Shown here one piece after another: positions 37,201-52,913 of a stretch of DNA of 64,000 nucleotides. The first letter of the stretch is position 1. Every line of letters starts with the position of its first letter. Origin of the DNA: a virus. The notes under the pieces were generated by a model. It saw only the letters and a program-made list of their open reading frames with translations. It did no database searches and was not told the origin of the DNA. The stretch covers positions 89,678-153,677 of the IMG/VR virus record IMGVR_UViG_3300043446_004500; one strand, written 5' to 3'. Position numbers and translations under genes: made by a program.

Positions 37201-37399
37201 TGGTGATTATCCAGTTTCTGTTACCATTACAAATGGAACATCAACCACATATCTTGCAAGAGACTTAATTATACCAAGATATTCAACTGTTGATATTTTA
37301 GATCGTCCAAAGAGAGTTGAACTTAATGGAACTATTGGTATTAAAGTTGGACAGACATCAACAATTGATGTGATTATTGCCGGTAAGCAAATTGTTTAG
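34283..37399 (+). CDS. collagen-like tail fibre protein with two triple-helix segments
   Basis: The product has 1038 residues. After a short N-terminus, residues ~21-248 are uninterrupted Gly-X-Y triplets (GTQGTTGSQ, proline-poor), and residues ~458-683 are a second Gly-X-Y segment (GSQGATGTQ, GSQGTLGSQ). Each is followed by the same ~25-residue sequence beginning PVAGSANQVVYKD, so the two halves are duplicated modules. The C-terminus has fibre motifs (VGIGTTNPTSKLYVVGDTYITG) and a globular tip. The repeats form rod-like trimeric shafts. Near-identical codons in the repeats suggest active recombination. The proline-poor composition is notable given a prolyl-hydroxylase-like gene downstream. 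Confidence 0.85.
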   Translation: MSYNVTVGYTPSLKVSREAAGLQGTQGTTGSQGIGGYIGADGSQGTQGTQGTQGTTGSQGAQGSQGTQGTTGSQGTQGTTGSQGTQGTTGSQGTQGTTGSQGTQGTQGTQGTTGSQGTQGTTGSQGTQGTTGSQGTQGTTGSQGTQGTTGSQGTQGTTGSQGIQGTTGTTGSQGIQGTTGTTGSQGIQGTTGTTGSQGIQGTTGSQGIQGTTGSQGIQGTTGTTGTTGSQGATGSQGSTGSQGTQGIYGPVAGSANQVVYKDGSNNPAGSGNLTFDGTNLYVAGNITVGGTSSYIISNQLNVADKDIVVGYTTNAFGVDVSTDTTANTGGIAVASTIGTPLVSFNSGGEITPDTYKQLMWFKAGTFTGLNTDAWAFNYALGIGTLQIPNGVRLAVGGMQVTDSTVSTPQLSISGLSTFGNTIKLNAGILDFYSNVGTAGSILISTGAGVSWTTPYAAGLQGVQGTQGLQGTQGTQGSTGSQGATGTQGATGSQGATGSQGTLGSQGATGTQGATGSQGATGSQGTLGSQGATGTQGATGSQGTLGSQGATGTQGATGSQGATGSQGTLGSQGTLGSQGTLGSQGATGSQGSTGSQGSTGAQGATGSQGSTGSQGTLGSQGATGSQGSTGSQGSTGAQGATGSQGSTGSQGTLGSQGTLGSQGSTGSQGTTGTQGTQGTQGTTGPVAGSANQVVYKDSSNNPAGSNNFTFNGTSVGIGTTNPTSKLYVVGDTYITGILTANRIISSLYGEFTGGSVSGSSIVGTSLSISGISTLGTVQISSGIVTATTGVVTYYGDGSKLSGISASAVVDGFNTGITSSVRILPLSYETTVFTFPSTAGKQYVIESINVANVDTSVGVGTTVNIIASIQDSTAEQTYIAYNVPVVNGGLIELLKNPMVAGPSDVIKMWATNSGYVGVNSSVEVYINYSEYTSTRYIRDYSSTVSIATTDLTTVYTSTTYPTTIQSIHLTNRTDIGDYPVSVTITNGTSTTYLARDLIIPRYSTVDILDRPKRVELNGTIGIKVGQTSTIDVIIAGKQIV
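34344..35030 (+). repeat. tandem DNA repeat encoding the first collagen-like shaft
   Basis: A 27-base unit (GGATCTCAAGGAACACAAGG and following ACCACA) recurs many times with few changes, then a related 36-base variant with ACAGGAACC. The repeat opens long spurious frames on both strands. A second such block lies at 35656-36330 with the variant unit GGTTCTCAAGGAGCCACTGG. Confidence 0.85.
35656..36330 (+). repeat. tandem DNA repeat encoding the second collagen-like shaft
   Basis: Higher-order repeats of 9- and 18-base units (GGTTCTCAAGGA plus ACTTTA or GCCACT) show duplicated blocks: the same order of units occurs at about 36030-36130 and 36140-36220, evidence of recent unequal exchange or slippage. 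Confidence 0.8.
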
Positions 37400-37477: not shown

Positions 37478-38131
37478 ATGAGTCTAATGATTGCTCTCCC
37501 TTGTCATGGGGGAATTGTGAGTGAAAAAACAACAATGAGTTTATTCAATCTAGGCAAACTTCTTGCTAGAAATAATATTTCTCACGGACTTTTAACACAG
37601 GCAAATTCTTCTTTAATTACAATTGGAAGATCTAAGTGTGTTAATTTTTTCTTGAATAATACAGAACACGAATATCTTCTTTTCTTAGACAGTGATATTG
37701 GTTTCAATCCAGAAGATGTATTAAAACTTTTATCTCATCAAGTTGATATTGTTTCTGGTGCTTATCCAATGAAAACGATACCTATTCGGTATTGCATTGA
37801 TATACTGCAACCAGAAGAACGAAAAGGTGATTTAATTAAAATTGGTGGAAATGGAATGGGATTTGTTCTTATTCATCGCAATGTGTTTTTGAATATATCA
37901 CAAAATTTTCCAGAACTTAAATACATTCCACCAACAAATGATAGCAATTATTCACCAACACAAGCAGAGTTAAATAATTCATATCATTATTTTATGGAGC
38001 ACAAAGAAAATAATTCCTTTATGAGTGAGGACAAAAGTTTCTTTTTCCGTGCTAAAATGTTAGGATATGATATATGGTTAGATACATCAATTAAATTGCA
38101 ACACATTGGTTCACATATTTTTACTGAGTAA
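37478..38131 (+). CDS. glycosyltransferase, GT-A fold (GT2-like)
   Basis: The product has 217 residues. It has the order expected of a small GT-A enzyme: an N-terminal strand (LMIALPCHGG), GRSKCVNFFL, then HEYLLFLDSDIGF (residues ~62-74) with a DSD motif that would bind the metal and nucleotide sugar, then IVSGAYPMK and GNGMGFVLIHR, and a final EDKSFFFRAKMLGYDIWLDTSI segment with an acidic residue suited to be the base. It would transfer a sugar from a nucleotide donor. It is the first gene of a group of modifying enzymes between fibre genes and has its own late promoter. Confidence 0.75.
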   Translation: MSLMIALPCHGGIVSEKTTMSLFNLGKLLARNNISHGLLTQANSSLITIGRSKCVNFFLNNTEHEYLLFLDSDIGFNPEDVLKLLSHQVDIVSGAYPMKTIPIRYCIDILQPEERKGDLIKIGGNGMGFVLIHRNVFLNISQNFPELKYIPPTNDSNYSPTQAELNNSYHYFMEHKENNSFMSEDKSFFFRAKMLGYDIWLDTSIKLQHIGSHIFTE

Positions 38132-38134
38132 CTT

Positions 38135-40537
38135 ATGAAATCTGGAGCAAGTGAAAGTTCTTATCATTACCTTTCACAACACTATGTAATTCCCGAAGAT
38201 GTAGAAGTATCACATCTTCCAGAAGTTCTTAAAAAATCAAATAAACCTTACAAGATTTTATGGGGTCAACACGCATATGACCAACCAGTCTTTGTAAATT
38301 TTAATCACAAAGATGTGACTCATATTGTTTCACCATCACATTGGGCAAAAGAGCAACTCATCAAGTATCATAATGTTCCAAAGAATAAAATTACTGTTAT
38401 TCCAACTGGAGTCAGTGATAGTTTTATCTTTAGTGAAAATAAAACAAAGACTTTTATTCATACTTCAATTCCTTATAAAGGTCTAGAACTTCTTCCTTCA
38501 ATTATTCGTCGTATTCATATAAAGCATCCCGATGCAAAGTTCAAAATCTTTTCATCAATGTCTTTGTATGGACCTTCTAATGACCCTTATATTGAATTGT
38601 ATGAAGAACTTAAGACTTTACCAAATGTAGAGTATTCTGCAGCAGTAGATCAAGAGGAACTTGTAAAGCACTATCAAGAATCAGCATTTTTTATTCATCC
38701 TAATATTTGGGAAGAGACCTTCTGTGTTTCAATGACCGAAGCAATGAAGTGTGGTGCATATCCAATTATTACAAACATTGGTGCATTGGAAGAAGTTGCT
38801 GGTGAAAACTTTGCATCTGTTGTACCGATTGATGGTAACAGGACATCAAAAGGATATGAGGTTACTGAGAACTTTCTAAATACATTTGCAGAGGTTTGTT
38901 GCACTGCTCTAGATTATTTTGAGGTAGATAGAACTTATTATAATCAAATCTCTAAATCACTTTCCAATCATATTTCACAAAAGTGTGATTGGAAAAAAGT
39001 TGCAAAACAATGGGAGAAACTCATCAATACTGTTTGTAGTCCTAATGTATTTTTTAGGGACAACAGTGTTGATAAGTCAATTTATGATGAAGTTTATATT
39101 CAAAATGTTTATGAAATTGAAACCCTAAATGAAGATGATGTTATTGTGGATATTGGTTCTCATTGTGGATATTTTTCCAAATTGTGTCTGGATAAAGGAA
39201 GTAAAAATGTAATTTCCTTTGAAGCAGATGAAAGTAACTACCAATGTTATCTAAAAAATCTATCCAAATATCAGGGATGGAAGTGTAACAATATTGCTGT
39301 TTGGAAAAGAACTTGCGATGAAGTTCCTTTTTACACTTATCCTCACAGTGAAAATACAGGACTTAACTCTTTTTACAAAAATCCTTATATGAATTCCTAT
39401 AAGGAAGTGAAAGTTAAAACAATTTCTTTAGATGATATTTTATCTTCTTATAATAAAATTAAACTATTGAAAATTGATGCTGAAGGAAGTGAATATGATA
39501 TTTTGATGAATTCAAAAGAAATTGAAAAAATTGAAAGTATTGTTGGAGAATATCATAATGATATGACCGACAAAACTATGGATGATTTGAAAACATATTT
39601 GACCAATAAAAACTTTATCATATATAAAACAGTTAAATTTAATCAAACTAGTGGATTATTTTTTGCAAAACACAAGTCTAAAATGAATGGAGAAACTATG
39701 ACTACTGAGAATACTGCATTGACTTATCAACCTATTTCAGCACAACAAGCAGTAATGGATGAAGATTATCTTCATAAGGCATTTCAAAATGTAATGAAGT
39801 GGGAAGAGAGTGATAAAGAACTTGCACAAGGCAGAACAAACTTCCAGTTAGAAAAGTTTGCTCTACTTGAAACTCATACACTTCCTGTTGCTTTTGAAAA
39901 TACACTGAAAGCACGAAGGCAAATGGCGGAAGGTTATATGTATAAACTCATTGAGATGAAAGAAAAGGTTCGTGAGTTTGAATACAAGTGGAAAGACCAA
40001 GATAGAACTCAACCAATCTTCTGGGAAGAAAGTGGTCCTGGTGGTGGTTCAAAGAAACTGCATTGGTTTGACCTGGATGAGCTATCACTCACACATTACC
40101 TAAAGTCTTGTGAACTTGAGATTCGTGACCGTCTTCATCAAATGGAGCACTTGGATAAAATTTTAGATAAACTAATGGAACAGAATGGTGGAAAACCAAT
40201 CACCAGAGAGCAATTCCTGGAAGGCGATGCTCTGTATTGGGAAAGAAGATTTGCAGACCAAGCAATGGATGAAATGATTGCTGCACAGACTGGTATTTCC
40301 ATTGGTAACCTTCACAGTATGCGTCGTGCTTCTGCACCTGCAATTGTTGATAAGAGAAATGAACTTCCAGAAGGTTATCTACCATTGAATAAAATGTTGG
40401 ATAGTCCACACGGTAAAATGGAATTCTTGAATGATTTGCAAAGAAAAGTTCTTACAGGTATTCAAGAAGTTACTGGTCAAAATTTGGGTATGATTACTGG
40501 TAGCCCTGAGGAGCAAAGAAAACTGGAAGGTAACTGA
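38135..40537 (+). CDS. fusion: GT4-like glycosyltransferase, FkbM methyltransferase and a virion-like C-terminus
   Basis: The product has 800 residues. Residues ~1-300 resemble a GT-B/GT4 transferase: FVSPSHWAKEQL-type segment, VIPTGVSDSF, then HPNIWEETFCVSMTEAMKCGAYPIITNIGALEEV, the E-x7-E donor-site pattern. Residues ~325-510 are an FkbM-like methyltransferase: DDVIVDIGSHCGYFSKLCLD, ISFEADESN, then LKIDAEGSEYDIL. Residues ~522-800 are a charged, helical domain unrelated to enzymes. An internal ATG (39698) has GGAG 5 bases before it, so a separate 279-residue product from the 3' part is possible. The fusion suggests that the enzymes may be carried on, or co-translated with, a structural protein. 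Confidence 0.75.
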   Translation: MKSGASESSYHYLSQHYVIPEDVEVSHLPEVLKKSNKPYKILWGQHAYDQPVFVNFNHKDVTHIVSPSHWAKEQLIKYHNVPKNKITVIPTGVSDSFIFSENKTKTFIHTSIPYKGLELLPSIIRRIHIKHPDAKFKIFSSMSLYGPSNDPYIELYEELKTLPNVEYSAAVDQEELVKHYQESAFFIHPNIWEETFCVSMTEAMKCGAYPIITNIGALEEVAGENFASVVPIDGNRTSKGYEVTENFLNTFAEVCCTALDYFEVDRTYYNQISKSLSNHISQKCDWKKVAKQWEKLINTVCSPNVFFRDNSVDKSIYDEVYIQNVYEIETLNEDDVIVDIGSHCGYFSKLCLDKGSKNVISFEADESNYQCYLKNLSKYQGWKCNNIAVWKRTCDEVPFYTYPHSENTGLNSFYKNPYMNSYKEVKVKTISLDDILSSYNKIKLLKIDAEGSEYDILMNSKEIEKIESIVGEYHNDMTDKTMDDLKTYLTNKNFIIYKTVKFNQTSGLFFAKHKSKMNGETMTTENTALTYQPISAQQAVMDEDYLHKAFQNVMKWEESDKELAQGRTNFQLEKFALLETHTLPVAFENTLKARRQMAEGYMYKLIEMKEKVREFEYKWKDQDRTQPIFWEESGPGGGSKKLHWFDLDELSLTHYLKSCELEIRDRLHQMEHLDKILDKLMEQNGGKPITREQFLEGDALYWERRFADQAMDEMIAAQTGISIGNLHSMRRASAPAIVDKRNELPEGYLPLNKMLDSPHGKMEFLNDLQRKVLTGIQEVTGQNLGMITGSPEEQRKLEGN
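39698..40537 (+). CDS. possible internally initiated C-terminal protein
   Basis: In the frame of the 800-residue gene, ATG 39698 preceded by GGAGAAACT would start a 279-residue helical protein (MTTENTALTYQPISAQQAVM). It contains long charged helices (ARRQMAEGYMYKLIEMKEKV) and no enzyme motif. It looks like a formerly independent gene joined to the FkbM domain upstream. Whether it is made alone is not known. Confidence 0.4.
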   Translation: MTTENTALTYQPISAQQAVMDEDYLHKAFQNVMKWEESDKELAQGRTNFQLEKFALLETHTLPVAFENTLKARRQMAEGYMYKLIEMKEKVREFEYKWKDQDRTQPIFWEESGPGGGSKKLHWFDLDELSLTHYLKSCELEIRDRLHQMEHLDKILDKLMEQNGGKPITREQFLEGDALYWERRFADQAMDEMIAAQTGISIGNLHSMRRASAPAIVDKRNELPEGYLPLNKMLDSPHGKMEFLNDLQRKVLTGIQEVTGQNLGMITGSPEEQRKLEGN

Positions 40538-40538
40538 G

Positions 40539-41072
40539 GTGAATCAAAAGTTTATGATTATTGATGACTTTTATGATATTGCTCATCAGTATCATCAAAG
40601 TTTCTTTAGTAAACAGTGTATGATAACTGAAGAGACGACTCAAAAACTTTCTTATATTTTGAGTCGTCCTTTGAAAATTGTAGAAGCATTTAATGAAGTT
40701 ACATTTGAGAATAATGAAAATCCAATCACTGCAAATACTGCTTGTGATTGGATTGCTGTAATTTATTTAACATTACCACCTAATTGTGTAATGAAAAAGG
40801 GATTGAGTTTTCATATTCATAAGAAAACAAGACTTGATAATTTTCCAAATGAGTATGCCTGCCAAATTAATGGTTGGCAGAATATGGATGATATTGTAAA
40901 GTCTTTTGATGTGGATAATGAGAATGAATGGGAAGAATATGCAAATGTGTTTGTAAAATATAATCGTTGTGTGTTATTCAAAGCAGATTATTGGCATTCT
41001 TATGGATATGGTTTTGGTAGTGAAATAAATAACTCAATGCTATACCAGAAGTTGTTAATAAAAAATGCCTAG
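40539..41072 (+). CDS. 2OG-Fe(II) oxygenase-like protein (short form)
   Basis: The start is GTG at 40539 or ATG at 40554; AAGG lies 8 bases before the GTG. The product has up to 177 residues and begins KFMIIDDFYDIAHQYHQSF. The layout resembles the oxygenase at 43010: an 'IDDFY' start, an AVIYLTLPPNC strand, a LSFHIHKKT segment, and a CVLFKADYWHSYGYGFG ending with the distal His. The usual proximal HxD is not clear (ANTACDWIAVIY), so activity is doubtful. It could be a degenerate or non-catalytic member. It overlaps the kelch gene by 8 bases. Confidence 0.5.
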   Translation: MNQKFMIIDDFYDIAHQYHQSFFSKQCMITEETTQKLSYILSRPLKIVEAFNEVTFENNENPITANTACDWIAVIYLTLPPNCVMKKGLSFHIHKKTRLDNFPNEYACQINGWQNMDDIVKSFDVDNENEWEEYANVFVKYNRCVLFKADYWHSYGYGFGSEINNSMLYQKLLIKNA

Positions 41073-42990
41073 TCCAAGGGGGATATTTCGACTTAAGCAA
41101 GTATATGAAGAGCAATTAAGTAATAATTGGTCAGTAAAAAGTGATGTATGGTTATCAACTCCTCAAGGAACCATAAACTTTGGATCTGGTGCAGTAGCAA
41201 CTCCACAGACTGGTTACTTTGGTGGAGGTAATCCTGGACCATATTCAACAGTAGATCGTATAGATTACTCCAATGATACAGCAACAGCAGTCGCAAAAGG
41301 ACCATTAAGTGTCGGTAGATATTTCTTAGCAGCAACAGGAAACAGTTCTTATGGTTACTTTGGTGGTGGTGCTACAGTATCAACAGTAGACCGTATAGAT
41401 TATGCTAATGATACTGCAACTGCATCACCAAAAGGACCATTGAGTCTTGCTAGATATGGTGTAGTAGCAACAGGTAACAGTTCTTATGGTTACTTTGGTG
41501 GTGGTAACGGACCCGTATCAACAGTAGACCGTATAGATTATGCTAATGATACTGCAACTGCATCACCTAAAGGACCATTGGGTCCTGCCAGAATAAGACC
41601 TGCAGCAACAGGTAATAGTTCTTATGGTTACTTTGGTGGTGGGTTTTTTCCTAGTCCAGGATCAAGAGTAGACCGTATTGATTACTCTAATGATACTGCA
41701 ACAGCATCACCAAAAGGACCATTGAGTCTTGCTAGATATGACTTAGCAGCAACAGGAAACAGTTCTTATGGTTACTTTGGTGGTGGTTATCCTACAGTAT
41801 CAAGAGTAGATCGTATTGATTACTCTAATGATACAGCAACAGCAGTCGCAAAAGGACCATTGAGTGCGGCAAAATATGGTCCAGGTGCAACAGGTAATAG
41901 TTCTTATGGTTACTTTGGTGGTGGTGCTCCTGGTACATATTCGACAGTAGACCGTATTGATTATGCTAATGATACTGCAACAGCATCACCTAAAGGTCCA
42001 TTGAGTGCTGCTAGAAGATATTTCGCAGCATCAAGTGCAAGAGCAAATGCACTTCCATCAACAAATACTACATTACCACCAGCAAATTTCCCAACTCAAA
42101 GTTATCCAGTCACATTCTATGGTTACTTTGGTGGTGGATATGTTTCTAGTTATGTATCAACAGTAGACCGTGTTGATTATGCTAATGATATTGCAACAGC
42201 ATCACCTAAAGGACCATTGAGTCTTGCTAGAGGATACTTAGCAGCAACAGGTAATAGTTCTTATGGATACTTTGGTGGTGGATATCTAGTATCAACAGTA
42301 GACCGTATAAATTATTCTAATGATACTGCAACAGCAGTCGCAAAAGGACCATTGAGTCTTGCTAGATATGGTTTAGCATCAACAGGAAACAGTTCTTATG
42401 GTTACTTTGGTGGTGGTTTTGCTCCTGGTGCAGTATCAACAGTAGATCGTATTGATTATGCTAATGATACAGCAACAGCAGTCGCAAAAGGACCATTGAG
42501 TGCTGCTAGACAATACTTAGCAGCAACAGGTAACAGTTCTTATGGATACTTTGGTGGTGGTGGTGGTGCTGGAGTATCAAGAGTAGATCGTATTGATTAC
42601 TCTAATGATACTGCTACTGCATCACCTAAAGGACCATTGAGTCTTGCTAGATTTGGTTTAATTGCAACAGGTAATAGTTCTTATGGATACTTTGGTGGTG
42701 GTAATCCTGGTCCAGTATCAAGAGTAGACCGTATTGATTATGCTAATGATACCGCAACTGCATCACCAAAAGGACCACTAAGTGCTGCTAGAAGATACTT
42801 AGCAGCAACAGGAAACAGTTCTTATGGTTACTTTGGTGGTGGTTTGAATCCTGGTGGTTATTTTTCAACAGTAGATCGTATTGATTACTCTAATGATACA
42901 GCAACAGCATCTGTAAAAGGACCATTAAGTGCTGCTAGAGGGTATTATCCAGCAGCAACCTCAGCAGCAGCAAACGGATTACCACAATAA
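41065..42990 (+). CDS. kelch-like repeat adhesin: 12 repeats, two six-bladed propellers
   Basis: The product has 641 residues. A ~45-residue N-terminus (GIFRLKQVYEEQLSNNWSV..WLS) is shared with the 1555-residue protein and probably anchors it to the virion. It is followed by 12 repeats of about 44-48 residues, each GYFGGG-(3-9 variable)-VDRIDYxNDTATA-xxKGPLSxxR-(3 variable)-ATGNSS. They fall into two groups of six separated by a linker (residues ~325-350), which fits two six-bladed beta-propellers with kelch-type GG motifs. Variation is concentrated at two positions per blade. The DNA of the frame is nearly identical between repeats. Likely a receptor-binding tail fibre. Confidence 0.75.
   Translation: MPSPRGIFRLKQVYEEQLSNNWSVKSDVWLSTPQGTINFGSGAVATPQTGYFGGGNPGPYSTVDRIDYSNDTATAVAKGPLSVGRYFLAATGNSSYGYFGGGATVSTVDRIDYANDTATASPKGPLSLARYGVVATGNSSYGYFGGGNGPVSTVDRIDYANDTATASPKGPLGPARIRPAATGNSSYGYFGGGFFPSPGSRVDRIDYSNDTATASPKGPLSLARYDLAATGNSSYGYFGGGYPTVSRVDRIDYSNDTATAVAKGPLSAAKYGPGATGNSSYGYFGGGAPGTYSTVDRIDYANDTATASPKGPLSAARRYFAASSARANALPSTNTTLPPANFPTQSYPVTFYGYFGGGYVSSYVSTVDRVDYANDIATASPKGPLSLARGYLAATGNSSYGYFGGGYLVSTVDRINYSNDTATAVAKGPLSLARYGLASTGNSSYGYFGGGFAPGAVSTVDRIDYANDTATAVAKGPLSAARQYLAATGNSSYGYFGGGGGAGVSRVDRIDYSNDTATASPKGPLSLARFGLIATGNSSYGYFGGGNPGPVSRVDRIDYANDTATASPKGPLSAARRYLAATGNSSYGYFGGGLNPGGYFSTVDRIDYSNDTATASVKGPLSAARGYYPAATSAAANGLPQ
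41210..42950 (+). repeat. tandem coding repeats (about 135-145 bp) of the first kelch gene
   Basis: Repeats contain near-constant blocks such as GGTAACAGTTCTTATGG and GTAGACCGTATTGATTA flanking short variable segments. Twelve copies are visible. Synonymous differences between copies are few, indicating recent duplication or gene conversion. The same family continues at 45055-49590. Confidence 0.85.
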
Positions 42991-42993
42991 ATA
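42986..42993 (+). promoter_or_regulatory. late promoter AATAAATA
   Basis: Built on the stop codon of the kelch gene, 16 bases before the ATG at 43010. The block ATAAATACTCAAA here is shared with 49592 and, with small changes, 37449 and 50276. Confidence 0.75.
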
Positions 42994-43009
42994 CTCAAAA
43001 ATCTTTATT

Positions 43010-43627
43010 ATGAAACAAAATATTATTGTTGTTGATGATTTTTATTCAAATCCACAAGAAGTTAGAGATTTTGCTTTAAAGGCAGAATATCCAGAACCAG
43101 AAGATAACTATACATATCCAGGAAGAAACTCAAACGATTCTTATTACTCACAAGATATTCATAAGTCTTTTGAGAATGTGGTCAAGGAACAACTTATTCC
43201 TGCAGATAAGAATGGATATTTTCGCATTTCATTAGCAACAGATTCTCATCGTCAAGATGTTCACGTAGATCCATCTTGGGAATGGGGTGCTGTAATTTAT
43301 ATGTCTTCACCAGAAGATTGTGTTGATGAGGGTGGTACATCATTCTGGAAACATAATGCTCTTCAAAGTGAAAATATTCCAAAAACCGATGAAGAAGCAC
43401 AGTTTTATGGATATCCAACTTATAAAGAATGTTGGTGGACAACTGTATATGGTGATGGTTTAGATCGTTCAAAGTGGACTCGTTACTTTCTGTGCCCGAT
43501 GAGATATAATAGATTAGTATTGTTTCGTACTCATTTATGGCATTCTCATAATTTTAATTTTGGGAACACTCTTGAAAACGGTAGATTAGTTCAGTTATTT
43601 TTCTTTAATCCAGTTAAGGAGTGGTAG
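43010..43627 (+). CDS. 2OG-Fe(II) oxygenase-like protein (long form)
   Basis: I take ATG 43010 because it follows the late promoter; a frame opens upstream inside the kelch gene. The product has 205 residues: NIIVVDDFYSNPQEVRDFALKAEYP, then a double-stranded beta-helix with DSHRQDVHVDPSWEWGAVIYMS (H-x-D at about residues 81-83), EGGTSFWKH, and RLVLFRTHLWHSHNFNFG as the distal His region. Members of this group are frequent in cyanophages and resemble the C-terminal domain of the 628-residue protein at 53919. They probably hydroxylate an unknown protein or small molecule using 2-oxoglutarate and O2. Confidence 0.65.
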   Translation: MKQNIIVVDDFYSNPQEVRDFALKAEYPEPEDNYTYPGRNSNDSYYSQDIHKSFENVVKEQLIPADKNGYFRISLATDSHRQDVHVDPSWEWGAVIYMSSPEDCVDEGGTSFWKHNALQSENIPKTDEEAQFYGYPTYKECWWTTVYGDGLDRSKWTRYFLCPMRYNRLVLFRTHLWHSHNFNFGNTLENGRLVQLFFFNPVKEW

Positions 43628-43628
43628 A

Positions 43629-44111
43629 ATGTATAGAGCATATTATGTTCCAAAATTTCCAGTTTCTTATATTACAGATGATGGAAGAGATTTATGGATT
43701 AATGATCCAAATCACATAAGACATCAATGTGGATTTCTTCAGGCAATTCTAGAACACATAGATAATACAAAACACATTGATCCAATAAAAATTGTTATTC
43801 CAGTTGAGGGGCAAGTTCAGGCAGGACCAGCAGGAACATCAAGACTTTATGCTCTTACACATTTGAGAGGTTATACACACGTTCCTGCAATTGTATCCAC
43901 TACACAATATTTTGAATGGTTTGGTGATGATGTTGTAGAAATTATTGATAAAGAGCAAATAAGGTCTTATCTTTTATTAGAACCAGCAGATTATAATATT
44001 GAACCAGATGGAAAAGCATTTTGGCATAATCATAATCCAAATGAAAAGCAAATGAGAGAAACATATAAAATTTCTCCAGAAACATTTGAAAAATTATTGA
44101 GATGTATATGA
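43629..44111 (+). CDS. ParB/Srx-like fold protein, unknown function
   Basis: The product has 160 residues. The middle (residues ~55-95) reads KIVIPVEGQVQAGPAGTSRLYALTHLRGYTHVPAIVS, which follows the ParB/sulfiredoxin pattern of a beta strand, a glycine-rich loop with Arg, a helix and 'VPAIV'. Such small domains occur in modification and DNA-processing loci. It lies between an oxygenase and a sulfotransferase and overlaps the latter by 10 bases. Role unknown; a nucleotide-using enzyme that assists modification is only a guess. Confidence 0.5.
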   Translation: MYRAYYVPKFPVSYITDDGRDLWINDPNHIRHQCGFLQAILEHIDNTKHIDPIKIVIPVEGQVQAGPAGTSRLYALTHLRGYTHVPAIVSTTQYFEWFGDDVVEIIDKEQIRSYLLLEPADYNIEPDGKAFWHNHNPNEKQMRETYKISPETFEKLLRCI

Positions 44112-44938
44112 ATAAGACTTATCATTTTATGGCGGGACTTCCACGATCAGGAAGCACACTACTCAAAAGTATTTTAGATCAAAATCCTAATATTCACGCA
44201 AATCCAGTAAGTCCTGTGATGGAATTGATGTATCATACTGAAGAATATTTGAAAAAAAGTGAGCAATATCTAGGATATCCAAAACCAAAAAGTGCCTATA
44301 AAATTATTAGTAGTTATATTGATAATTATTATTTTGACCGTGAAGAACCAGTTATTATAGATCATTGTCGTGCCTGGACAAATAATATAGAAAGAATTAA
44401 AACTTATATTACACCAAATCCAAAAATCATTTGTCCTGTAAGAGATATTGTTGAAATTCTTACATCTTTTATTACAATGGTTCATCGTAATGATGATCAA
44501 GTTTCATTTATAGATCAACATTTGATAGAAAAAGGTGTTACTGTAGATGATGATAATCGTTGTCAGTATTTAATGAGTGATGATGGAATCGTAGAACAAG
44601 CACTATGGGCACAAGGACAGGCATTTATTAAAAATGATACTCGTCATTTATTAATGATTGAATATAATGATTTGGTGAATACTCCAGATGAAACAATGAA
44701 AAGAATTTATGATTTCTTAGAGATGGATTATTACAATCATAACTTTAGTAATGTTGAAAATAATCATCGTGAGAATGATGACCAGTGGTATTTAAAAGAT
44801 ATGCACTATGTGAGAAAGGAAGTTAAAAAAATATCTAAAAAACCAGAAGATGTATTATCACCCTATATTTTAAATAAATATAAAAAACTGGAATACTGGA
44901 AGTATCCCGAGAGTCCTTATTTAATAAATGGCAACTAA
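44102..44938 (+). CDS. sulfotransferase
   Basis: The product has 278 residues. The 5' PAPS-binding motif is clear at the N-terminus (FMAGLPRSGSTLLKSIL, residues ~8-24), and the 3' phosphate-binding motif is seen as KIICPVRDIVEILTSF (~107-122), followed by helices and an LLMIEYNDLVNTPDETMKRIYDFL segment typical of the family. It would move a sulfuryl group from PAPS to a sugar, tyrosine or other acceptor. It immediately precedes, and overlaps by 11 bases, the tyrosine-rich 30-repeat kelch gene. Host supply of PAPS is assumed. The acceptor is not known. Confidence 0.8.
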   Translation: MYMNKTYHFMAGLPRSGSTLLKSILDQNPNIHANPVSPVMELMYHTEEYLKKSEQYLGYPKPKSAYKIISSYIDNYYFDREEPVIIDHCRAWTNNIERIKTYITPNPKIICPVRDIVEILTSFITMVHRNDDQVSFIDQHLIEKGVTVDDDNRCQYLMSDDGIVEQALWAQGQAFIKNDTRHLLMIEYNDLVNTPDETMKRIYDFLEMDYYNHNFSNVENNHRENDDQWYLKDMHYVRKEVKKISKKPEDVLSPYILNKYKKLEYWKYPESPYLINGN

Positions 44939-47900
44939 TACAAGAGGAATATTTGCACTTTTAGATGTAAGAGAAAGACAAAACACAGGATATTGGCCTG
45001 TAAAGAGTGGTGTATGGTTAAGTCCAAGCCCTTATTATGGTCCTGCTCCAGATGTTGGTTACTTTGGTGGTGCTCAACCTGCAAATTCAACAGTAGACCG
45101 TGTTGATTACTCTAATGATACTGCAACAGCATCAGTAAGAGGTCCATTAAGTCTTGCTAGAGGATATCTAGCAGCAACAGGTAGTAATTCTTATGGTTAC
45201 TTTGGTGGTGGATGGACTCCTGGTTCAGTATCAACAGTAGACCGTATCAATTACTCTAATGATACTGCAACAGCATCACCTAAAGGACCATTGAGTCTTG
45301 CTAGATATGGTTTAGTAGCAACAGGTAGTAATTCGTATGGTTACTTTGGTGGTGGTCGTGCCGATTATTCGACAGTAGACCGTATTGATTACTCTAATGA
45401 TACTGCAACAGCATCACCTAAAGGACCATTGAGTGCTGCTAGAGGATACTTAGCAGCAACAGGTAACAGTTCTTATGGTTACTTTGGTGGTGGTCTTACA
45501 GTATCAAGAGTAGATCGTATTGATTACTCTAATGATACTGCTACTGCATCACCTAAAGGACCATTGAGTATTGCTAGATATGCTTTAGCAGCAACAGGTA
45601 ACAGTTCTTATGGTTATTTTGGTGGTGGTACTCCTGCAAGATCAACAGTAGATCGTATTGATTATGCTAATGATACAGCAACAGCAGTCGCAAAAGGACC
45701 ATTGAGTGCTATTAGATATCGTTTAGCAGCAACAGGTAATAGTTCTTTTGGTTACTTTGGTGGTGGTTTTGCTTCATCAACAGTAGATCGTATTGATTAC
45801 TCCAATGATACCGCAACAGCAGTTGCAAAAGGACCATTAAGTTCTGCTAGATATTACTTAGCAGCATCAAGTCCTAAAGCAAATGCAATCACAAATTCAG
45901 TGCTTTTGCCCTCATCAGGAGGAACCATAAACTTTGGAACTGGTACAGTAGCAACTCCAAATACTGGTTACTTTGGTGGTGGTACTCCTGGTCCAATATC
46001 AACAGTAGATCGTATAGATTACTCTAACGACACAGCAACAGCAGTCGCAAAAGGTCCATTAATTCTTGCTAGACTTTACTTAGCAGCAACAGGTAATGGT
46101 TCTTATGGATACTTTGGTGGTGGTAACGGGCCCGTATCAACAGTAGATCGTATTAATTACTCCAATGATACTACAACTGCATCACCTAAGGGTCCATTAA
46201 GTGCTGGTAGATATTGGCTTGCTGCAACAGGTAATAATTCTTATGGTTATTTTGCAGCAGGTAGGCCGACTGGAGTATCAACAGTAGATCGTATAGATTA
46301 CTCTAATGATACTGCAACTGCATCACCAAAGGGACCATTAAATTCTGGAAAATTAGCATTAACTGCGACCGGAAATCAATCTTATGGTTACTTTGGTGGT
46401 GGATATGCTTCCATATCAACAGTAGACCGTATTGATTATGCTAATGATACAGCAACAGCATCACCAAAAGGTCTATTAAGTGTTGGTAAAGGTATGTTTG
46501 CTGCAACAGGTAATAGTTCTTATGGTTACTTTGGTGGAGGAAATTATTCAACACCAAATTCTTCTGTAGACCGTATTGATTACTCTAATGATACAGCAAC
46601 AGCATCACCAAAGGGACCATTAAGTGCTGGTAGAGGTGGTTTATCTGCAACAGGAACTAGTTCTTATGGATACTTTGGTGGAGGTAATGGTCCAGTATCA
46701 AGAGTAGATCGTATTGATTACTCTAATGATACTGCAACAGCATCACCTAAAGGACCATTGAGTGCTGCTAGAACATATCTTGCATCATCAAGTGCAAGAG
46801 CAAATGGATTTTCACCAGTGGTTAACACTACATTACCACCAGCAAACACAATATTCCAAAAGTTTCCAGTATTTTTCTATGGGTACTTTATTGGAGGTGC
46901 TCCTGGTCCATTATCAACAATAGATCGAATTGATTATACAAATGATACAATAACAGCATCTCCAAGAGGAACATTATCAGCTGGAAGAGCTGGTGGTGCT
47001 GGAACTGGTAGTAGTTCTTATGGTTATTTTGGTGGAGGTGCTGTTTCATCTGTTAGTAGAATTGATTACTCTAATGATTCATTATTACCATCACCAGGAC
47101 TCAATCTATTATCAAGAGGTCCATTAAATGTTAGTAGGCAATATTTTGGTGCAGCAGGAAATTATAATTATGGTTGGTTTGGTGGAGGATCACCATCAAT
47201 TACTACAGTAGATCGTATTGATTATGCTAATGATACTGCAACAGCATCACCAAAAGGAAATTTAACTTCGGTTACTTTAGGTAATGCAGCAACAGGAAAT
47301 AAAGATTATGGATATTGGGCAGGAGGATATAGTCCTTCTTATAATCAACTAGTAGACCGTATTGATTATGCTAATGATACTGCAACAGCACCATCAAGAA
47401 CAGCATTATCTTCTGCAAGAGGATTATTCTCTGCAACAGGAAACAAAGATTATGGTTACTTTGGTGGAGGATATAATCCTGCTGCAATATCCACAGTAGA
47501 TCGTTTAGATTATGCAAATGATACTGTCTTTTTAGTATCAAAAGGACCATTGAGTGCTGCAAGATATGGTTTAGCGGCAACAGGAAACACAACTAATGGT
47601 TACTTTGGTGGTGGTGCTCCTGGTACATATTCGACAGTAGACCGTATTGATTACTCTAATGATACTGCTACTGCATCACCTAAAGGACCATTGAGTCTTG
47701 CTAGATATTATTTTGGAGCAAATACATCAATTATTAATCTTCTTGATTATGCTTCTTATACTCCTTCTTCAGCACCAGCAACACCACCACCTACAAGTGC
47801 TTACTTTGGTGGTGGTAATGATGATACAAAAGCACTTCAAAGCATTGAAAGAATTGATTATGCAAATGATACTGCAACGGCAACTAATGATTCTTGTTTG

Positions 47901-49595
47901 ACTGTTGGAACTCAGTACTTAGCAGCAACAGGTAATAGTTCTTATGGTTACTTTGGTGGTGGTGTTCCATCATCATCAAGAGTAGACCGTATTGATTATT
48001 CAAGTAATACCGTATCAACATCAACTAAAGGACCATTAAGTCTTGCTAGAGGATACTTAGCAGCAACAGGTAACAGTTCTTATGGTTACTTTGGTGGTGG
48101 TTATCCTGGTATATATTCAACAGTAGACCGTATTGATTATGCTAATGATACTGCAACTGCATCACCTAAAGGACCATTAAGTGCTGGTAGATATGACTTA
48201 GCAGCAACAGGTAATGAAAGTTATGGATACTTTGGTGGTGGTCCTAACACTCCTTCTACAATTGTATCTCGTCAAAAAATTGATAAAATTGATTATTCAA
48301 ATGATACTGCAACAGCAGTTTGGAAATCTGCATTTGGAAACTTGAAATATCAACATTCTGCAACAGGAAATAAAAATTATGGTTACTTTGGTGGAGGTGT
48401 TTCTCCATATTCAACCAAGGTAGAAAGACTTGATTATGCAAGTGATATGCTCTGGGCAACTACAAGATCTAGTTTGTCTCCTGCATTTTCAACATATAGT
48501 GCGGCAACTGGTAGTTCTTCATTTGGATACTGGAGTGGTAAATATCCTGCAATTTCAACAGTAGATCGTTTAGATTATTCTAGTGATACTACGAATACAG
48601 TTACTAAAGGACCATTAAATACAAAAAGAGGACTTCATGCAGGGTGTAGTCCTGTTGCAAATGGTATTGGTCTCACACCAGTTCCAGTTCCTGCTGCACC
48701 AGGAGCACCAGTTCCTACAAGTGGTTATTTTGGTGGTGGTTTTTCGTATTATCCTGGCGGTTCACTCAAGATTGAAAGAATTGATTATTCAAATGATACT
48801 GCAACATCATCCTGGAGAGCATCATTAAATAACCTAAGATATTACTTAGCAGCAACAGGTAATAGTTCTTATGGTTACTTTGGTGCTGGTGGTGCTCCTG
48901 GTGTTCCAACAATATCAACAGTAGAACGTATTGATTATTCTACAGATTATCAAATTGCACTTACTAAAGGACCATTAAGTCTTGCTAGAGGATACTTAGC
49001 AGCAACAGGTAACAGTTCTTATGGTTATTTTGGTGGTGGGTGGCCTGGTCCATATTCAACAGTAGACCGTATTGATTATGCTAATGATACTGCAACAGCA
49101 TCGCCTAAAGGACCATTGAGTCTTGCTAGATATGGTGTAGTAGCAACAGGTAACAGTTCTTATGGTTACTTTGGTGGTGGTTATGCTCCTGGTCCAAGAT
49201 CAACAGTAGATCGTATTGATTATGCTAATGATACTGCAACAGCATCACCTAAAGGACCATTAAGTGCCGCAAAATATTTCTTAGCAGCAACAGGAAATAG
49301 TTCTTATGGTTACTTTGGTGGTGGTGCTCCTAGTCCATATTCAACAGTAGACCGTATTGATTATGCTAATGATACTGCAACAGCATCACCTAAAGGACCA
49401 TTGAGTCTTGCTAGATATGGTGTAGTAGCAACAGGTAACAGTTCTTATGGATACTTTGGTGGTGGTTATTCTGCTTATTCAAGAGTAGACCGTATTGATT
49501 ACTCTAATGATACTGCAACAGCATCACCTAAAGGACCACTAAGTGAAGCAAGTTATTATCTTTCTGCTTGTAGTCCTGTTGCTAACGGTCTATAA
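44928..49595 (+). CDS. giant kelch-like repeat adhesin: 30 repeats, five six-bladed propellers
   Basis: The product has 1555 residues. The N-terminal ~45 residues (TRGIFALLDVRERQNTGYWPVKSGVWLS) match the 641-residue paralogue. I count 30 repeats of the YFGGG...VDRIDYxNDTATASPKGPLS...ATGNSSYG unit, in five groups of six, each group ended by a linker (around residues 320, 640, 945, 1250). The pattern 5 x 6 is exact, so five six-bladed propellers are likely. Repeats in group 3 and 4 are more divergent than those in groups 1, 2 and 5. Variable residues cluster after YFGGG and after LSxxR. The end (SACSPVANGL) parallels the paralogue's. Likely a receptor-binding fibre. Confidence 0.78.
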   Translation: MATNTRGIFALLDVRERQNTGYWPVKSGVWLSPSPYYGPAPDVGYFGGAQPANSTVDRVDYSNDTATASVRGPLSLARGYLAATGSNSYGYFGGGWTPGSVSTVDRINYSNDTATASPKGPLSLARYGLVATGSNSYGYFGGGRADYSTVDRIDYSNDTATASPKGPLSAARGYLAATGNSSYGYFGGGLTVSRVDRIDYSNDTATASPKGPLSIARYALAATGNSSYGYFGGGTPARSTVDRIDYANDTATAVAKGPLSAIRYRLAATGNSSFGYFGGGFASSTVDRIDYSNDTATAVAKGPLSSARYYLAASSPKANAITNSVLLPSSGGTINFGTGTVATPNTGYFGGGTPGPISTVDRIDYSNDTATAVAKGPLILARLYLAATGNGSYGYFGGGNGPVSTVDRINYSNDTTTASPKGPLSAGRYWLAATGNNSYGYFAAGRPTGVSTVDRIDYSNDTATASPKGPLNSGKLALTATGNQSYGYFGGGYASISTVDRIDYANDTATASPKGLLSVGKGMFAATGNSSYGYFGGGNYSTPNSSVDRIDYSNDTATASPKGPLSAGRGGLSATGTSSYGYFGGGNGPVSRVDRIDYSNDTATASPKGPLSAARTYLASSSARANGFSPVVNTTLPPANTIFQKFPVFFYGYFIGGAPGPLSTIDRIDYTNDTITASPRGTLSAGRAGGAGTGSSSYGYFGGGAVSSVSRIDYSNDSLLPSPGLNLLSRGPLNVSRQYFGAAGNYNYGWFGGGSPSITTVDRIDYANDTATASPKGNLTSVTLGNAATGNKDYGYWAGGYSPSYNQLVDRIDYANDTATAPSRTALSSARGLFSATGNKDYGYFGGGYNPAAISTVDRLDYANDTVFLVSKGPLSAARYGLAATGNTTNGYFGGGAPGTYSTVDRIDYSNDTATASPKGPLSLARYYFGANTSIINLLDYASYTPSSAPATPPPTSAYFGGGNDDTKALQSIERIDYANDTATATNDSCLTVGTQYLAATGNSSYGYFGGGVPSSSRVDRIDYSSNTVSTSTKGPLSLARGYLAATGNSSYGYFGGGYPGIYSTVDRIDYANDTATASPKGPLSAGRYDLAATGNESYGYFGGGPNTPSTIVSRQKIDKIDYSNDTATAVWKSAFGNLKYQHSATGNKNYGYFGGGVSPYSTKVERLDYASDMLWATTRSSLSPAFSTYSAATGSSSFGYWSGKYPAISTVDRLDYSSDTTNTVTKGPLNTKRGLHAGCSPVANGIGLTPVPVPAAPGAPVPTSGYFGGGFSYYPGGSLKIERIDYSNDTATSSWRASLNNLRYYLAATGNSSYGYFGAGGAPGVPTISTVERIDYSTDYQIALTKGPLSLARGYLAATGNSSYGYFGGGWPGPYSTVDRIDYANDTATASPKGPLSLARYGVVATGNSSYGYFGGGYAPGPRSTVDRIDYANDTATASPKGPLSAAKYFLAATGNSSYGYFGGGAPSPYSTVDRIDYANDTATASPKGPLSLARYGVVATGNSSYGYFGGGYSAYSRVDRIDYSNDTATASPKGPLSEASYYLSACSPVANGL
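45055..49590 (+). repeat. tandem coding repeats of the giant kelch gene (30 copies)
   Basis: Copies share blocks of near-identical DNA (for example GGTTACTTTGGTGGTGG and CCTAAAGGACCATTGAGT) with the 41-43 kb gene. This gives a long homologous substrate for recombination within and between the two genes. Confidence 0.85.
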
Positions 49596-49598
49596 ATA
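49591..49598 (+). promoter_or_regulatory. late promoter TATAAATA
   Basis: Perfect octamer over the stop of the giant kelch gene, 18 bases before the ATG at 49617. Confidence 0.85.
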
Positions 49599-49616
49599 CT
49601 CAAAACAACTTAGATT

Positions 49617-50279
49617 ATGATTGATAATCCTCTTTCTTATGTTCTCATTCGCCCTAATGTTATCAATCCAGAAGGTCTTCAAGAACTTATAACTCATATC
49701 AAATCTTCACCTGCAGAAGACCTTTCTGTTTTTGATCCAGATAAAACAAATGCAACTGGACAAACATCTTGGATTGTTGATAAGGAAACCAGAGATACTC
49801 AAATTGTTGCTATGGGTAATCTCTATCCAAAGATTGAAGACCTACTGAGAAATGCAGTCAAACATATCATTAATCCTTTCTATCAATGTGAAGTAGATAG
49901 TAGTGAAATACCACAAGTTCTTTCTTATGGTATTGGAGGTCATTATCGTCCTCATATTGATGGAGAAAGCATTTGGGTAACTCCTAGAGGTGAAAAGATT
50001 TGGAAAAAAAGTACAAATAGAGATTTATCTATTGTTTTTTTCTTGAATAATGATTTTGAAGGTGGTGATTTTGTGTTTCCAGATTTAAAAGTAAGAGTAA
50101 GACCAGAACCAGGAATGATGGTATGTTTTCCATCTAATCATCATTATATGCACGGAGTTGAATCAGTCACCAAAGGAAAAAGATATTCAATTGTAACTTG
50201 GGCAACTGTAAAAGGATTTCCATCAATGAATGAGGTTAATCAACAACTTTCACAGGAGTATGGAGTTCCTGTAATATAA
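49617..50279 (+). CDS. prolyl 4-hydroxylase-like 2OG-Fe(II) oxygenase
   Basis: The product has 220 residues. The double-stranded beta-helix is clear: LSYGIGGHYRPHIDGE (residues ~102-117) with the H-x-D iron ligands, LSIVFFLNNDFEGGDFVFPD, then GMMVCFPSNHHYMHGVESVTKGKRYSIVTW with the distal His and the 2-oxoglutarate-binding Lys/Arg. This is the pattern of P4H-type enzymes. It lies between the kelch gene and a collagen-like fibre gene, which hints at modification of fibre proteins, although the Gly-X-Y repeats have few prolines. Another protein or sugar may be the substrate. Confidence 0.8.
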   Translation: MIDNPLSYVLIRPNVINPEGLQELITHIKSSPAEDLSVFDPDKTNATGQTSWIVDKETRDTQIVAMGNLYPKIEDLLRNAVKHIINPFYQCEVDSSEIPQVLSYGIGGHYRPHIDGESIWVTPRGEKIWKKSTNRDLSIVFFLNNDFEGGDFVFPDLKVRVRPEPGMMVCFPSNHHYMHGVESVTKGKRYSIVTWATVKGFPSMNEVNQQLSQEYGVPVI

Positions 50280-50765: not shown

Positions 50766-52913
50766 ATGTCTAATAATAGAGAACTTTCTCAGTTTGGTTC
50801 TTTTGTTAATGTTAATGATAATACAACAAACATAGGAATTGCTACTGGTAGTTCTCTAGTTGGTATTGGAACTACATTTCCAACATCAAAATTGGATGTT
50901 ATTGGCGATGTAAAAATATCTGGAGTAACAACTGCATCCGTTTTTAGTGGTAGTGGAATATTATTAACAGATCTACCAAATACAACATTTTTATTCAATT
51001 CAACAGGAATACATACAACATCAAATGTTGGAATTGGAACTACAACAGCATCTTCAACATTAACAGTTCAAGGAAATGCTCTTGTAACAGGAATAGTAAC
51101 TGCTTCATCTTTTTTTGGAAATGGTGCAGGATTAACTGATGTTTTTAGTAGAGTATCAATTTCTTCTGAAGGCACAGTTGTAGGTTCTGCGATTACATCC
51201 TTAGACTATAGAGGTCCTGGAATTTCTTCTATTGTAGCTTCTTCTGGAATAGCAACTATAACGTTTGTTTCAGTTCAAGGAACAACAGGAACTCAAGGTA
51301 CTACAGGAACTCAAGGTGCTACTGGTACTCAAGGTGCTACTGGTACTCAAGGTGCTACTGGTACTCAAGGTATTCAAGGTCGCCAAGGCACTACAGGTAC
51401 TCAAGGTGCTACTGGTACTCAAGGATCTAATGGTGTTCAAGGATCAACGGGTTCTGGTGCTCAAGGTACTACAGGTACTCAAGGTGCATCAGGTACTCAG
51501 GGTGCATCAGGTGCTCAAGGTGCATCAGGAACTTCAGTTCAAGGATCTGCAGGAGCAAGTGTTCAAGGTACTACAGGTACTCAAGGTGCATCAGGTACTC
51601 AAGGCACTACAGGAACTCAAGGTGCATCAGGAACTTCAGTTCAAGGATCTGCAGGAGCAAGTGTTCAAGGAACTACAGGAACTCAGGGTGTCACAGGAAC
51701 TTCAGTTCAAGGGACTACAGGAGCTCAGGGTGCTACAGGAACTCAAGGTACAATAGGAACTTCAGTTCAAGGAACTACAGGAACTCAAGGTGCATCAGGT
51801 ACTCAAGGCACTACAGGAACTCAAGGTGCATCAGGAACTTCAGTTCAAGGTGCCACAGGAACTCAGGGTACTACAGGATCAGGTACTCAAGGTTCTACTG
51901 GTACTCAAGGTGCTACAGGAACTCAAGGTATTCAAGGTCGTCAAGGAACTACAGGTTCTCAAGGAACTACAGGTTCTCAAGGAACTACAGGTACTCAAGG
52001 AACAATAGGAACTCAAGGATTTCAAGGACCACAAGGTGCTACAGGAACACAAGGTGCTACAGGAACTCAAGGAACAACAGGTACTCAAGGTTCTTCAGGG
52101 CCAGGAACAACAATTAACGCAACATCAACAACAACAGATGCATCTTTTTATCCAGTATTTGTTTCTACAATTGGTTCTGCTACAACCGCAAGAGCAGAAA
52201 GTGGATTTATAATAAATCCGGGAGCAAACACTTTTACAATATCTTCCGGAAAACTTGTTGTAGATAGAACTGATAATCCATCTTTAGGAACTTACTTTGA
52301 AGTCACTTCTCCTATTGGAACCAGATTTTCCGTGGTAGAAGGTAATTCGGGATCATCAACACCCTCCGAGGCACTGTCACTTAAACTAGGCGCTAATAGA
52401 AGTTATATATCTGTCGATAAATCTTTTGTCCCTTATGTAGATAATAGCCTTTCATTAGGCGGATCCGGTAGTCTTAATTCCGTAGCATACAATCTTAGAT
52501 GGACTGCAGTTTGGGCAGTTAACGGGACTATTCAAACATCAGACCAAAGAGAAAAAACAAATATTAATACTTCAGATCTTGGATTAAACTTTATAGAAAA
52601 ACTTAATCCAGTATCATATAAATGGATTGTTGGTAAAAATGAAATTGATAAAGATGATATTAATATTATAACTCCAATTCCAGGAAAAAGACTTCATTAT
52701 GGATTATTGGCACAAGAAGTCAAACAGGCATATGAAGAGTGTGGTGCTGCTGATTTTGGTGGTTGGATTTTAACAGATGCAGAGGATCCAGATAGTTCTC
52801 AAGGTTTAAGATATGACCAGTTCATTGCTCCATTGATTAAAGCAGTTCAAGAACAACAGGAGATGATTAATTCACTTAAGCAAGAAATTGAAAATTTGAA
52901 GTCTCAAATATGA
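50766..52913 (+). CDS. collagen-like tail fibre with a C-terminal S74 chaperone domain
   Basis: The product has 715 residues. The N-terminal ~165 residues carry fibre motifs (VGIGTTFPTSKLDVIGDVKISG; VGIGTTTASSTLTVQGNALVTG). Residues ~168-450 are Gly-X-Y repeats (GTQGATGTQ, GTSVQGSAG), interrupted by non-triplet GASVQG sites. The C-terminal ~125 residues form the Peptidase_S74/intramolecular chaperone: SDQREKTNINTSDLGLNFIEKLNPVSYKW, LHYGLLAQEVKQAY, and a final coiled coil. In this family the chaperone trimerises the fibre and then cleaves itself at a Ser-Asp bond, here in TSDQREK (residues ~593-599). This is a probable long fibre or receptor-binding protein. Confidence 0.85.
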   Translation: MSNNRELSQFGSFVNVNDNTTNIGIATGSSLVGIGTTFPTSKLDVIGDVKISGVTTASVFSGSGILLTDLPNTTFLFNSTGIHTTSNVGIGTTTASSTLTVQGNALVTGIVTASSFFGNGAGLTDVFSRVSISSEGTVVGSAITSLDYRGPGISSIVASSGIATITFVSVQGTTGTQGTTGTQGATGTQGATGTQGATGTQGIQGRQGTTGTQGATGTQGSNGVQGSTGSGAQGTTGTQGASGTQGASGAQGASGTSVQGSAGASVQGTTGTQGASGTQGTTGTQGASGTSVQGSAGASVQGTTGTQGVTGTSVQGTTGAQGATGTQGTIGTSVQGTTGTQGASGTQGTTGTQGASGTSVQGATGTQGTTGSGTQGSTGTQGATGTQGIQGRQGTTGSQGTTGSQGTTGTQGTIGTQGFQGPQGATGTQGATGTQGTTGTQGSSGPGTTINATSTTTDASFYPVFVSTIGSATTARAESGFIINPGANTFTISSGKLVVDRTDNPSLGTYFEVTSPIGTRFSVVEGNSGSSTPSEALSLKLGANRSYISVDKSFVPYVDNSLSLGGSGSLNSVAYNLRWTAVWAVNGTIQTSDQREKTNINTSDLGLNFIEKLNPVSYKWIVGKNEIDKDDINIITPIPGKRLHYGLLAQEVKQAYEECGAADFGGWILTDAEDPDSSQGLRYDQFIAPLIKAVQEQQEMINSLKQEIENLKSQI
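51270..52100 (+). repeat. tandem repeats encoding the collagen-like shaft
   Basis: 9-base units (GGTACTCAA / GGTGCTACT / ACAGGAACT) repeat through the shaft. Larger blocks, such as the one starting TCAGGAACTTCAGTTCAAGG, are present three or more times. Open frames on other strands here are side effects of the repeat. Confidence 0.8.

Follow-up and report, generated by a model that had tools for sequence, protein, structure and literature searches.

What are the two long repeat proteins encoded at positions 41065-49595 of the window examined here, and what do they do for the virus that carries them? The window is the 64,000-nucleotide end (positions 89678-153677) of the 153,677-base virus record IMGVR_UViG_3300043446_004500, which is possibly incomplete, and the two proteins comprise 641 and 1555 residues (strings 1 and 2, Table 1). 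We propose, with a probability of about 0.72, that both are strings of kelch-type six-bladed beta-propellers which bind the host surface, the virus being a T4-like cyanophage and its tail or baseplate their most probable location. The observed or computed basis consists of unit counts, the predicted fold, loop positions, the substitution pattern, changes of whole propellers and the gene neighborhood; virion location, receptor binding and multivalency are the steps that we infer.

Parsing of the window strings, which splits groups without imposing a minimum of six, yields 12 and 30 units that fall into two and five groups of six, as had been counted in a sequence-only reading of this DNA. Gaps of 21-28 residues separate the groups, and a stretch of about 45-50 residues precedes the blades in both strings. 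A motif scan of string 2 gave a 31st match, which is false and lies inside unit 14. Two details of the earlier reading need correction: the unit length, given as 44-48 residues, is 45-52 by parsing, and the framework is not nearly invariant in propellers 3 and 4 of string 2, where it is clearly degenerate. The DNA repeats themselves (Tandem Repeats Finder scores 358-1024) are old, to judge from a synonymous divergence (pS) of about 0.16-0.52 in the framework within the two window arrays, so that the framework protein sequence is held by selection and not by very recent duplication.

Structure prediction with AlphaFold2 (AF2) of one regular and one degenerate six-blade group gave well-scored models, in agreement with the six-bladed propellers expected from the repeat counts. 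Propeller 1 of string 1, modeled from 66 aligned propellers, reached a mean predicted local distance difference test score (pLDDT) of 91.9 and a predicted template modeling score (pTM) of 0.90; for propeller 4 of string 2, with its degenerate blades, the values were 86.3 and 0.86, this model being assessed by score only. The alignments for both models were drawn from the same repeat family. The first model matches KEAP1 in Foldseek with a template modeling (TM) score of about 0.80, and VIA-align superimposes it on KEAP1 and SAKe structures with Z of 36-37 and a root-mean-square deviation (rmsd) of 1.8-1.9 over about 265 residues; the Foldseek and VIA lists consist mostly of KEAP1 and SAKe entries and leave room for other propeller families. 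The strand order per unit in this model is B (GYFGG), B-C loop, C (VDRIDY), C-D turn, a short D, D-A loop (after LSxxR), A and A-B turn. Kelch homology is also seen at the sequence level: a phmmer search retrieves SAKe, a designed kelch propeller (8pjs, E 2.7e-7), and the family profile (A2) matches human KLHL12 (E 7.5e-6). Among 1,244 blades of the family, the double Gly closing strand B (positions 4-5) is present in 92% and 95%, and the strand C aromatic at position 19 is Tyr in 67% and Phe in 31%, while the strand-D Trp of the canonical kelch motif is conserved at none of positions 24-29. Pfam kelch models give no family on the strings at E-values up to 10, PF01344 is absent from the genome record, and the string proteins have no other Pfam domain above the cut-off. 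The fold, as modeled, is that of the kelch beta-propeller superfamily, in a divergent form outside the canonical Pfam Kelch_1 type.

The multiple of six proved general among relatives (loci and contigs are given L numbers). By automatic count, 113 of the 128 non-redundant complete open reading frames (ORFs), edge-truncated ones being excluded, have 6n blades (24 with 6, 47 with 12, 15 with 18, 12 with 24, 8 with 30 and 7 with 36), and a smaller earlier set gave 71 of 83. Six of the 15 deviating ORFs are counting errors on inspection, due to missed or spurious blades: L016, L104, L105 and the 611-aa ORF of L097 are really 6n by eye, L120 owes its miscount to a spurious 7-bit match, and L002 has 18 blades under a later profile. 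The remaining exceptions include L005 (two ORFs, a single string split by a frame break), the divergent L110, and five short ORFs (86-128 aa; two in L032, the others in L186, L097 and L208) in which only one or two blades were counted. The clearest exception to the rule is a 523-aa ORF with 6+4 blades (L080:10320-11888); blades 2 and 3 of its second group are almost identical, a possible assembly collapse. Automatic grouping across relatives gave exactly six blades in 299 of 317 groups, a procedure that splits only after at least six blades and can detect short groups only at the ends.

The variability of the blades is concentrated in two patches, with entropy maxima at positions 6-11 and 34-39 of 48 in the 1,244-blade set, which correspond to the B-C and D-A loops. 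The entropy, loop and substitution counts leave out a single blade of the window as well as blades that were weak or partial, and the window figures for loops and within-array substitution were taken on L003, which equals the window sequence over 21.9 kb. The claim that the loops differ in nearly every copy holds up well: the 41 remaining window blades (of 42) carry 39 different B-C loops and 35 different D-A loops, all 41 pairs being distinct, and the whole set contains 1,099 B-C and 1,054 D-A variants. Since both loops lie at the same end of the antiparallel sheet, strand topology places the variable patches on a single face; passages of the KEAP1 literature describe the D-A and B-C loops as its substrate surface (PMC4668279). 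Each blade would thus contribute one B-C and one D-A loop to this face, making about 12 variable loops per propeller, and a string would present two or five different faces on a constant scaffold.

Within arrays, the ratio of nonsynonymous to synonymous divergence (pN/pS) exceeds 1 only for these two loops, with values in the long string, the short string and all arrays of 1.29, 1.78 and 1.16 for B-C and 1.13, 1.11 and 1.18 for D-A. Sixteen pairs of corresponding propellers from different contigs gave 1.27 for B-C and 1.28 for D-A, compared with 0.14 for C-D, 0.28 for A-B and 0.43 for the strands; 30 of their 96 blade pairs are unequal in length. These pairs were hand-picked among the matches listed, at identities of at least 86%, and share members (L122/L117, at 86.2%, was left out), so that the Fisher p of 7e-29 for the set is too small, the pairs being chosen and overlapping. 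The loops may diverge by substitutions and small insertions or deletions (indels) under diversifying or relaxed selection, with strands and opposite-face loops kept constant.

Several observations weigh against a binding face under diversifying selection. Within arrays strand A is itself fairly variable (pN/pS 0.60 in the long string, 0.99 in the short one and 0.93 in all arrays), as is the A-B turn (0.80, 0.43 and 0.74); the other framework segments of the window arrays give 0.00-0.66. In KLHL20, according to passages of PMC6720452, the D-A loops are largely buried. A pN/pS of about 1.3 fits positive selection and relaxed constraint alike, and in 16 near-identical contig pairs (hand-chosen, several sharing a contig, best BLAST segment only) the arrays contain 25 mismatches in 50,212 nt versus 513 in 115,598 nt outside, i.e. 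no array excess, with 20 gap positions within arrays and 12 outside. The proteins could be regarded as structural spacers or decoration proteins whose loops vary through lack of constraint, an explanation compatible with ratios of about 1.2-1.3 and with the moderately variable A-B turn within arrays (0.43-0.80). We consider it improbable: the opposite-face A-B and C-D loops are conserved between corresponding propellers, which weighs against plain loop freedom, and a relaxation confined to one side would need an extra reason.

Comparison of related arrays indicates that whole propellers are gained, lost and exchanged. L021 (36 blades) and L023 (30 blades) have propeller 1 in common at 93%, and group g5 of L021 equals g4 of L023 at 91%; among the matches listed, their middle propellers reach about 74% at best, no nearer than other family members, the last propeller of L023 is 94% identical to that of L195 and 78% to that of L021, and g3 of L014 is 96% identical to g3 of L023. 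Array size shifts by whole propellers, presumably since six blades close a ring. Between window blades we found 46 common exact tracts of at least 40 nt, against a mean of 8.7 and a maximum of 19 in 300 codon shuffles, an excess that fits gene conversion or shared (recent) ancestry; the longest of them, at 70 nt, is unexceptional, since the shuffles produced tracts of up to 111 nt.

This surplus and the extreme loop diversity could be taken as the work of an active receptor-diversifying system (similar to a diversity-generating retroelement (DGR), or a programmed shuffling of blades) that keeps altering loops within lineages. The pair L009 and L010 also points that way, with 14 mismatches and 14 gap positions inside the array and none outside, partly at a contig end. 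Such a system seems to us very unlikely, given the few substitutions in the arrays of near-identical pairs, the ordinary length of the longest tract, the identity of two contigs of this virus across 21.9 kb, and the absence of RVT_1 from the 153.7-kb record, which may be incomplete. A DGR target was rejected on the lack of RVT_1; a template repeat with A-specific changes was never searched for. The "receptor-diversifying adhesin family" of the sequence-only reading is thus retained for its conserved frame and variable loops, and we found no sign of active hypermutation. The diversity looks as if it had arisen by ordinary mutation and recombination, together with indels in the loops, selection acting on the outcome.

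As to where the propellers act, cyanophage genes are matched by those for the baseplate hub and tail fibres in the window, and a photosystem II reaction-centre gene is present in the record (by a PF00124 match, which does not separate D1 from D2); by its gene content the virus is probably a T4-like cyanophage with cyanobacteria as hosts. Both strings sit between tail-fibre genes, a setting expected of phage receptor-binding proteins. The location in the tail-fibre region makes a virion adhesin the best, though unproven, reading.

Table 1. Features of the window discussed in the text (positions in the window).
Feature	Positions	Strand	Basis
Tail fibre, phrog_529	22107-27803		
Collagen-like fibre	34283-37399		
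Glycosyltransferase and FkbM methyltransferase	38135..40537	+	Pfam
177-aa cassette protein	40539..41072	+	weak likeness to phrog_1644
Kelch-propeller string 1, 641 aa, 12 blades = 2 propellers	41065..42990	+	phrog_19111, E 4e-138
N-terminal peptide RGIF..VYE.Q...W..K.DVWL upstream of first blade of string 1	41065..41214	+	
String 1 propeller 1 (blades 1-6)	41215..42051	+	AF2 model and KEAP1/SAKe matches
String 1 propeller 2 (blades 7-12)	42124..42972	+	unit parsing
DUF6445 protein, conserved H.D...H	42929..43627	+	Pfam, E 8e-15; phrog_1644
Sulfotransferase, nearest solved relatives protein-tyrosine sulfotransferases	44102..44938	+	Pfam and profile matches
Kelch-propeller string 2, 1555 aa, 30 blades = 5 propellers	44928..49595	+	phrog_19111, E 4e-297
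String 2 propeller 1	45060..45896	+	unit parsing
String 2 propeller 2	45969..46811	+	unit parsing
String 2 propeller 3, degenerate blades, one with 6-residue insertion	46884..47738	+	unit parsing
String 2 propeller 4, degenerate blades	47802..48665	+	AF2 model
String 2 propeller 5	48726..49592	+	unit parsing
2OG-Fe(II) oxygenase, nearest solved relatives prolyl hydroxylases	49617..50279	+	Pfam and profile matches
Collagen/S74 fibre	50766-52913		

The strings might instead be intracellular or secreted binders of host proteins, comparable to the kelch proteins of poxviruses, which turn up in our fold search; they share the fold and the variable face with cellular kelch adaptors. This is rather unlikely in view of the placement between tail-fibre genes, the lack of further Pfam domains and the kelch protein CBB_552 located in the virion of phage CBB, as stated in passages of PMC5259590. 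The recurrence of the N-terminal peptide among kelch ORFs argues in the same direction: its strict pattern occurs in 22 of 83 non-redundant complete kelch ORFs, with more looking similar by eye, and single-propeller ORFs are mostly without it. The pattern is absent from non-kelch ORFs of the loci scanned, i.e. there is no anchor shared with other fibres there; the peptide of string 2 occurs twice in the genome record, namely in strings 1 and 2, and searches of phage records returned either nothing or a single match, to a DNA primase, at E 0.5. A virion-attachment tag is a possible role for it.

The two strings are embedded in a cassette of enzyme genes, three further genes (42929-44938) lying inside the 41065-49595 interval; the DUF6445 ORF start overlaps the end of string 1, and its protein was searched from 43013. 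With the neighboring proteins of the window as queries, we analyzed 79 loci with non-redundant kelch ORFs; some of these loci share a contig and many are incomplete. Within 3 kb of kelch, a 2-oxoglutarate (2OG) oxygenase is found in 60, glycosyltransferase (GT)/FkbM in 55, sulfotransferase in 46, the 177-aa protein in 45 and DUF6445 in 44, counts in which related families overlap. Directly downstream of 137 kelch ORFs are 2OG oxygenase (49), DUF6445 (28), two GT groups (21 and 14), kelch (11), sulfotransferase (5) and others (9); directly upstream of 122 are sulfotransferase (34), GT groups (20 and 16), the 177-aa protein (17), kelch (12), collagen-like genes (9), a 128-aa protein (2) and others (12). 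When gene order was shuffled within the 79 loci 1,000 times, the observed counts lay above all shuffles for kelch followed by 2OG oxygenase (mean 10.0, maximum 21), kelch followed by DUF6445/177-aa (mean 10.0, maximum 19) and sulfotransferase followed by kelch (mean 8.2, maximum 16), but not for 177-aa/DUF6445 upstream of kelch (17 versus a mean of 10.1 and a maximum of 21). In the window (37478-50279) and in L061, L072, L138 and L140, kelch alternates with sulfotransferase, DUF6445, 2OG oxygenase and GT/FkbM in a recurrent order, and comparable cassettes occur in AG-345-L05 and AG-345-O18, two virus records from single cells.

At E 1e-5 the sulfotransferase was found in 9 of 50,697 phage records, including the more distant S-SCSM1 and AG-345-E08; kelch arrays accompany it in AG-345-L05, AG-345-O18 and S-SKS1 (two records). 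S-SRM01 has the sulfotransferase and no kelch ORFs in the 18.8 kb examined, hence this enzyme also occurs apart from kelch cassettes. The sulfotransferase profile matches TPST1 at E 6e-10 over residues 6-208 of 275, other TPST matches covering only residues 6-50, so that relatedness past the PAPS loop is tentative, and the 2OG oxygenase profile is nearest to prolyl hydroxylases (E 3e-9). The DUF6445 profile has no PDB match up to E 0.1; by resemblance, its H.D...H motif may be that of an oxygenase. According to passages of PMC3037559, 2OG oxygenases are common in cyanophages (14 of 16 genomes).

This recurrent neighborhood suggests that phage-encoded enzymes may modify the propeller proteins, with host glycans or other fibres as alternative targets. 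The fuller scheme, in which multivalent strings of interchangeable propellers would be chemically finished by the sulfotransferase, the prolyl-hydroxylase-like oxygenase, DUF6445 and the GT/methyltransferase of the cassette, is doubtful. Its targets might be e.g. Tyr in D-A loops and Pro in B-C loops, in which case the variable face would become chemically more diverse. If true, it would mean protein tyrosine sulfation or proline hydroxylation encoded by a phage and applied to a receptor-binding protein, and the cassette would predict modified virion proteins in cyanophages. Collagen-type X-Pro-Gly was rejected as a weak target of the oxygenase (7 and 11 PG pairs in strings 1 and 2 against 6.5 and 13.6 expected from composition; PG in only 272 of the 1,244 B-C loops, against Pro in 942). 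The two collagen-like fibres of the window consist of G-T-Q repeats low in proline (1.9% and 2.2%), which makes them poor main substrates for a prolyl hydroxylase.

Compared with known systems, the strings resemble the kelch domains of KEAP1 and KLHL proteins in their six blades, in a group that opens at strand B and closes with a C-terminal A strand (the ring closure given for KEAP1 in passages of PMC4668279), in the Gly pair after strand B and Tyr/Phe in strand C, and in B-C and D-A loops on one face; the KEAP1 superposition has Z 36.0 and rmsd 1.9 over 264 residues at 20% identity. They differ in having nearly identical blades, up to six propellers and no conserved strand-D Trp, and, unlike in KEAP1/KLHL, neither a BTB domain nor a Pfam Kelch match was found on them. 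The best structural matches are the SAKe scaffolds (PDB 7ona, 8pjs and others; Z 37.2), reportedly designed six-bladed kelch propellers with changeable parts. These are single propellers, whereas the phage propellers are natural and concatenated.

Kelch proteins of phages are already known, and the strings are a divergent variant of a known fold. Those of CBB, BcepSaruman and PhiPA3 match in fold, the listed entries being of 280-619 aa, and passages of PMC3037559 mention a Kelch-repeat protein unique to cyanophage P-HM2 versus its co-isolate P-HM1; the portions of the sources dealing with CBB, BcepSaruman, PhiPA3, S-SKS1 and P-HM2 describe no rule of six over long strings. PHROG_19111, the family containing both strings, is annotated as of unknown function. 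Tentaclins and other DGR targets are likewise variable phage receptor-binding proteins, according to passages of PMC10743442, but they are C-type lectins of reverse transcriptase systems. Among the titles and abstract openings listed, a scope outside subscription journals and preprints, none describes such propeller strings or the cassette. Kelch repeats are stated, in passages of PMC9238414, to be 9 times commoner in marine long reads than in assembled data; assemblies tend to lose kelch arrays, and the family may therefore be under-reported. With its fixed framework, its strict number of blades and its loops that change fastest on the presumed binding face, the family offers a model for binding diversity on a repeat scaffold without a known hypermutation machine, and kelch strings could help to predict the cyanobacteria recognized by a phage.

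A degenerate motif scan of genome contigs gave 11 stretches, none of them a relative, and bacterial copies were rejected. Most annotations of the kelch genes in S-SKS1 (HQ633071.1; L113:1-1226 and L114:11817-17962) are of short hypothetical proteins; several frame changes in the repeats, due to sequencing error or real variation, apparently interrupt these genes. L046, L031 and L032 have tandem single-propeller ORFs in place of one long string. Loci such as L039 also contain another repeat family (IFGYG...NLVSNTGVVATDTTGVGTAR), whose non-redundant ORFs, six in number, all have exactly six units; it occurs at L039:10952-14034 and in L049, L050 and L079, adjoins single-propeller kelch genes, and by eye has the same two variable stretches. 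The alignment of the otherwise near-identical L039 and L044 breaks near 11,360-11,590, where a six-unit ORF of this second family lies, and the two are offset there by about 230 bases.

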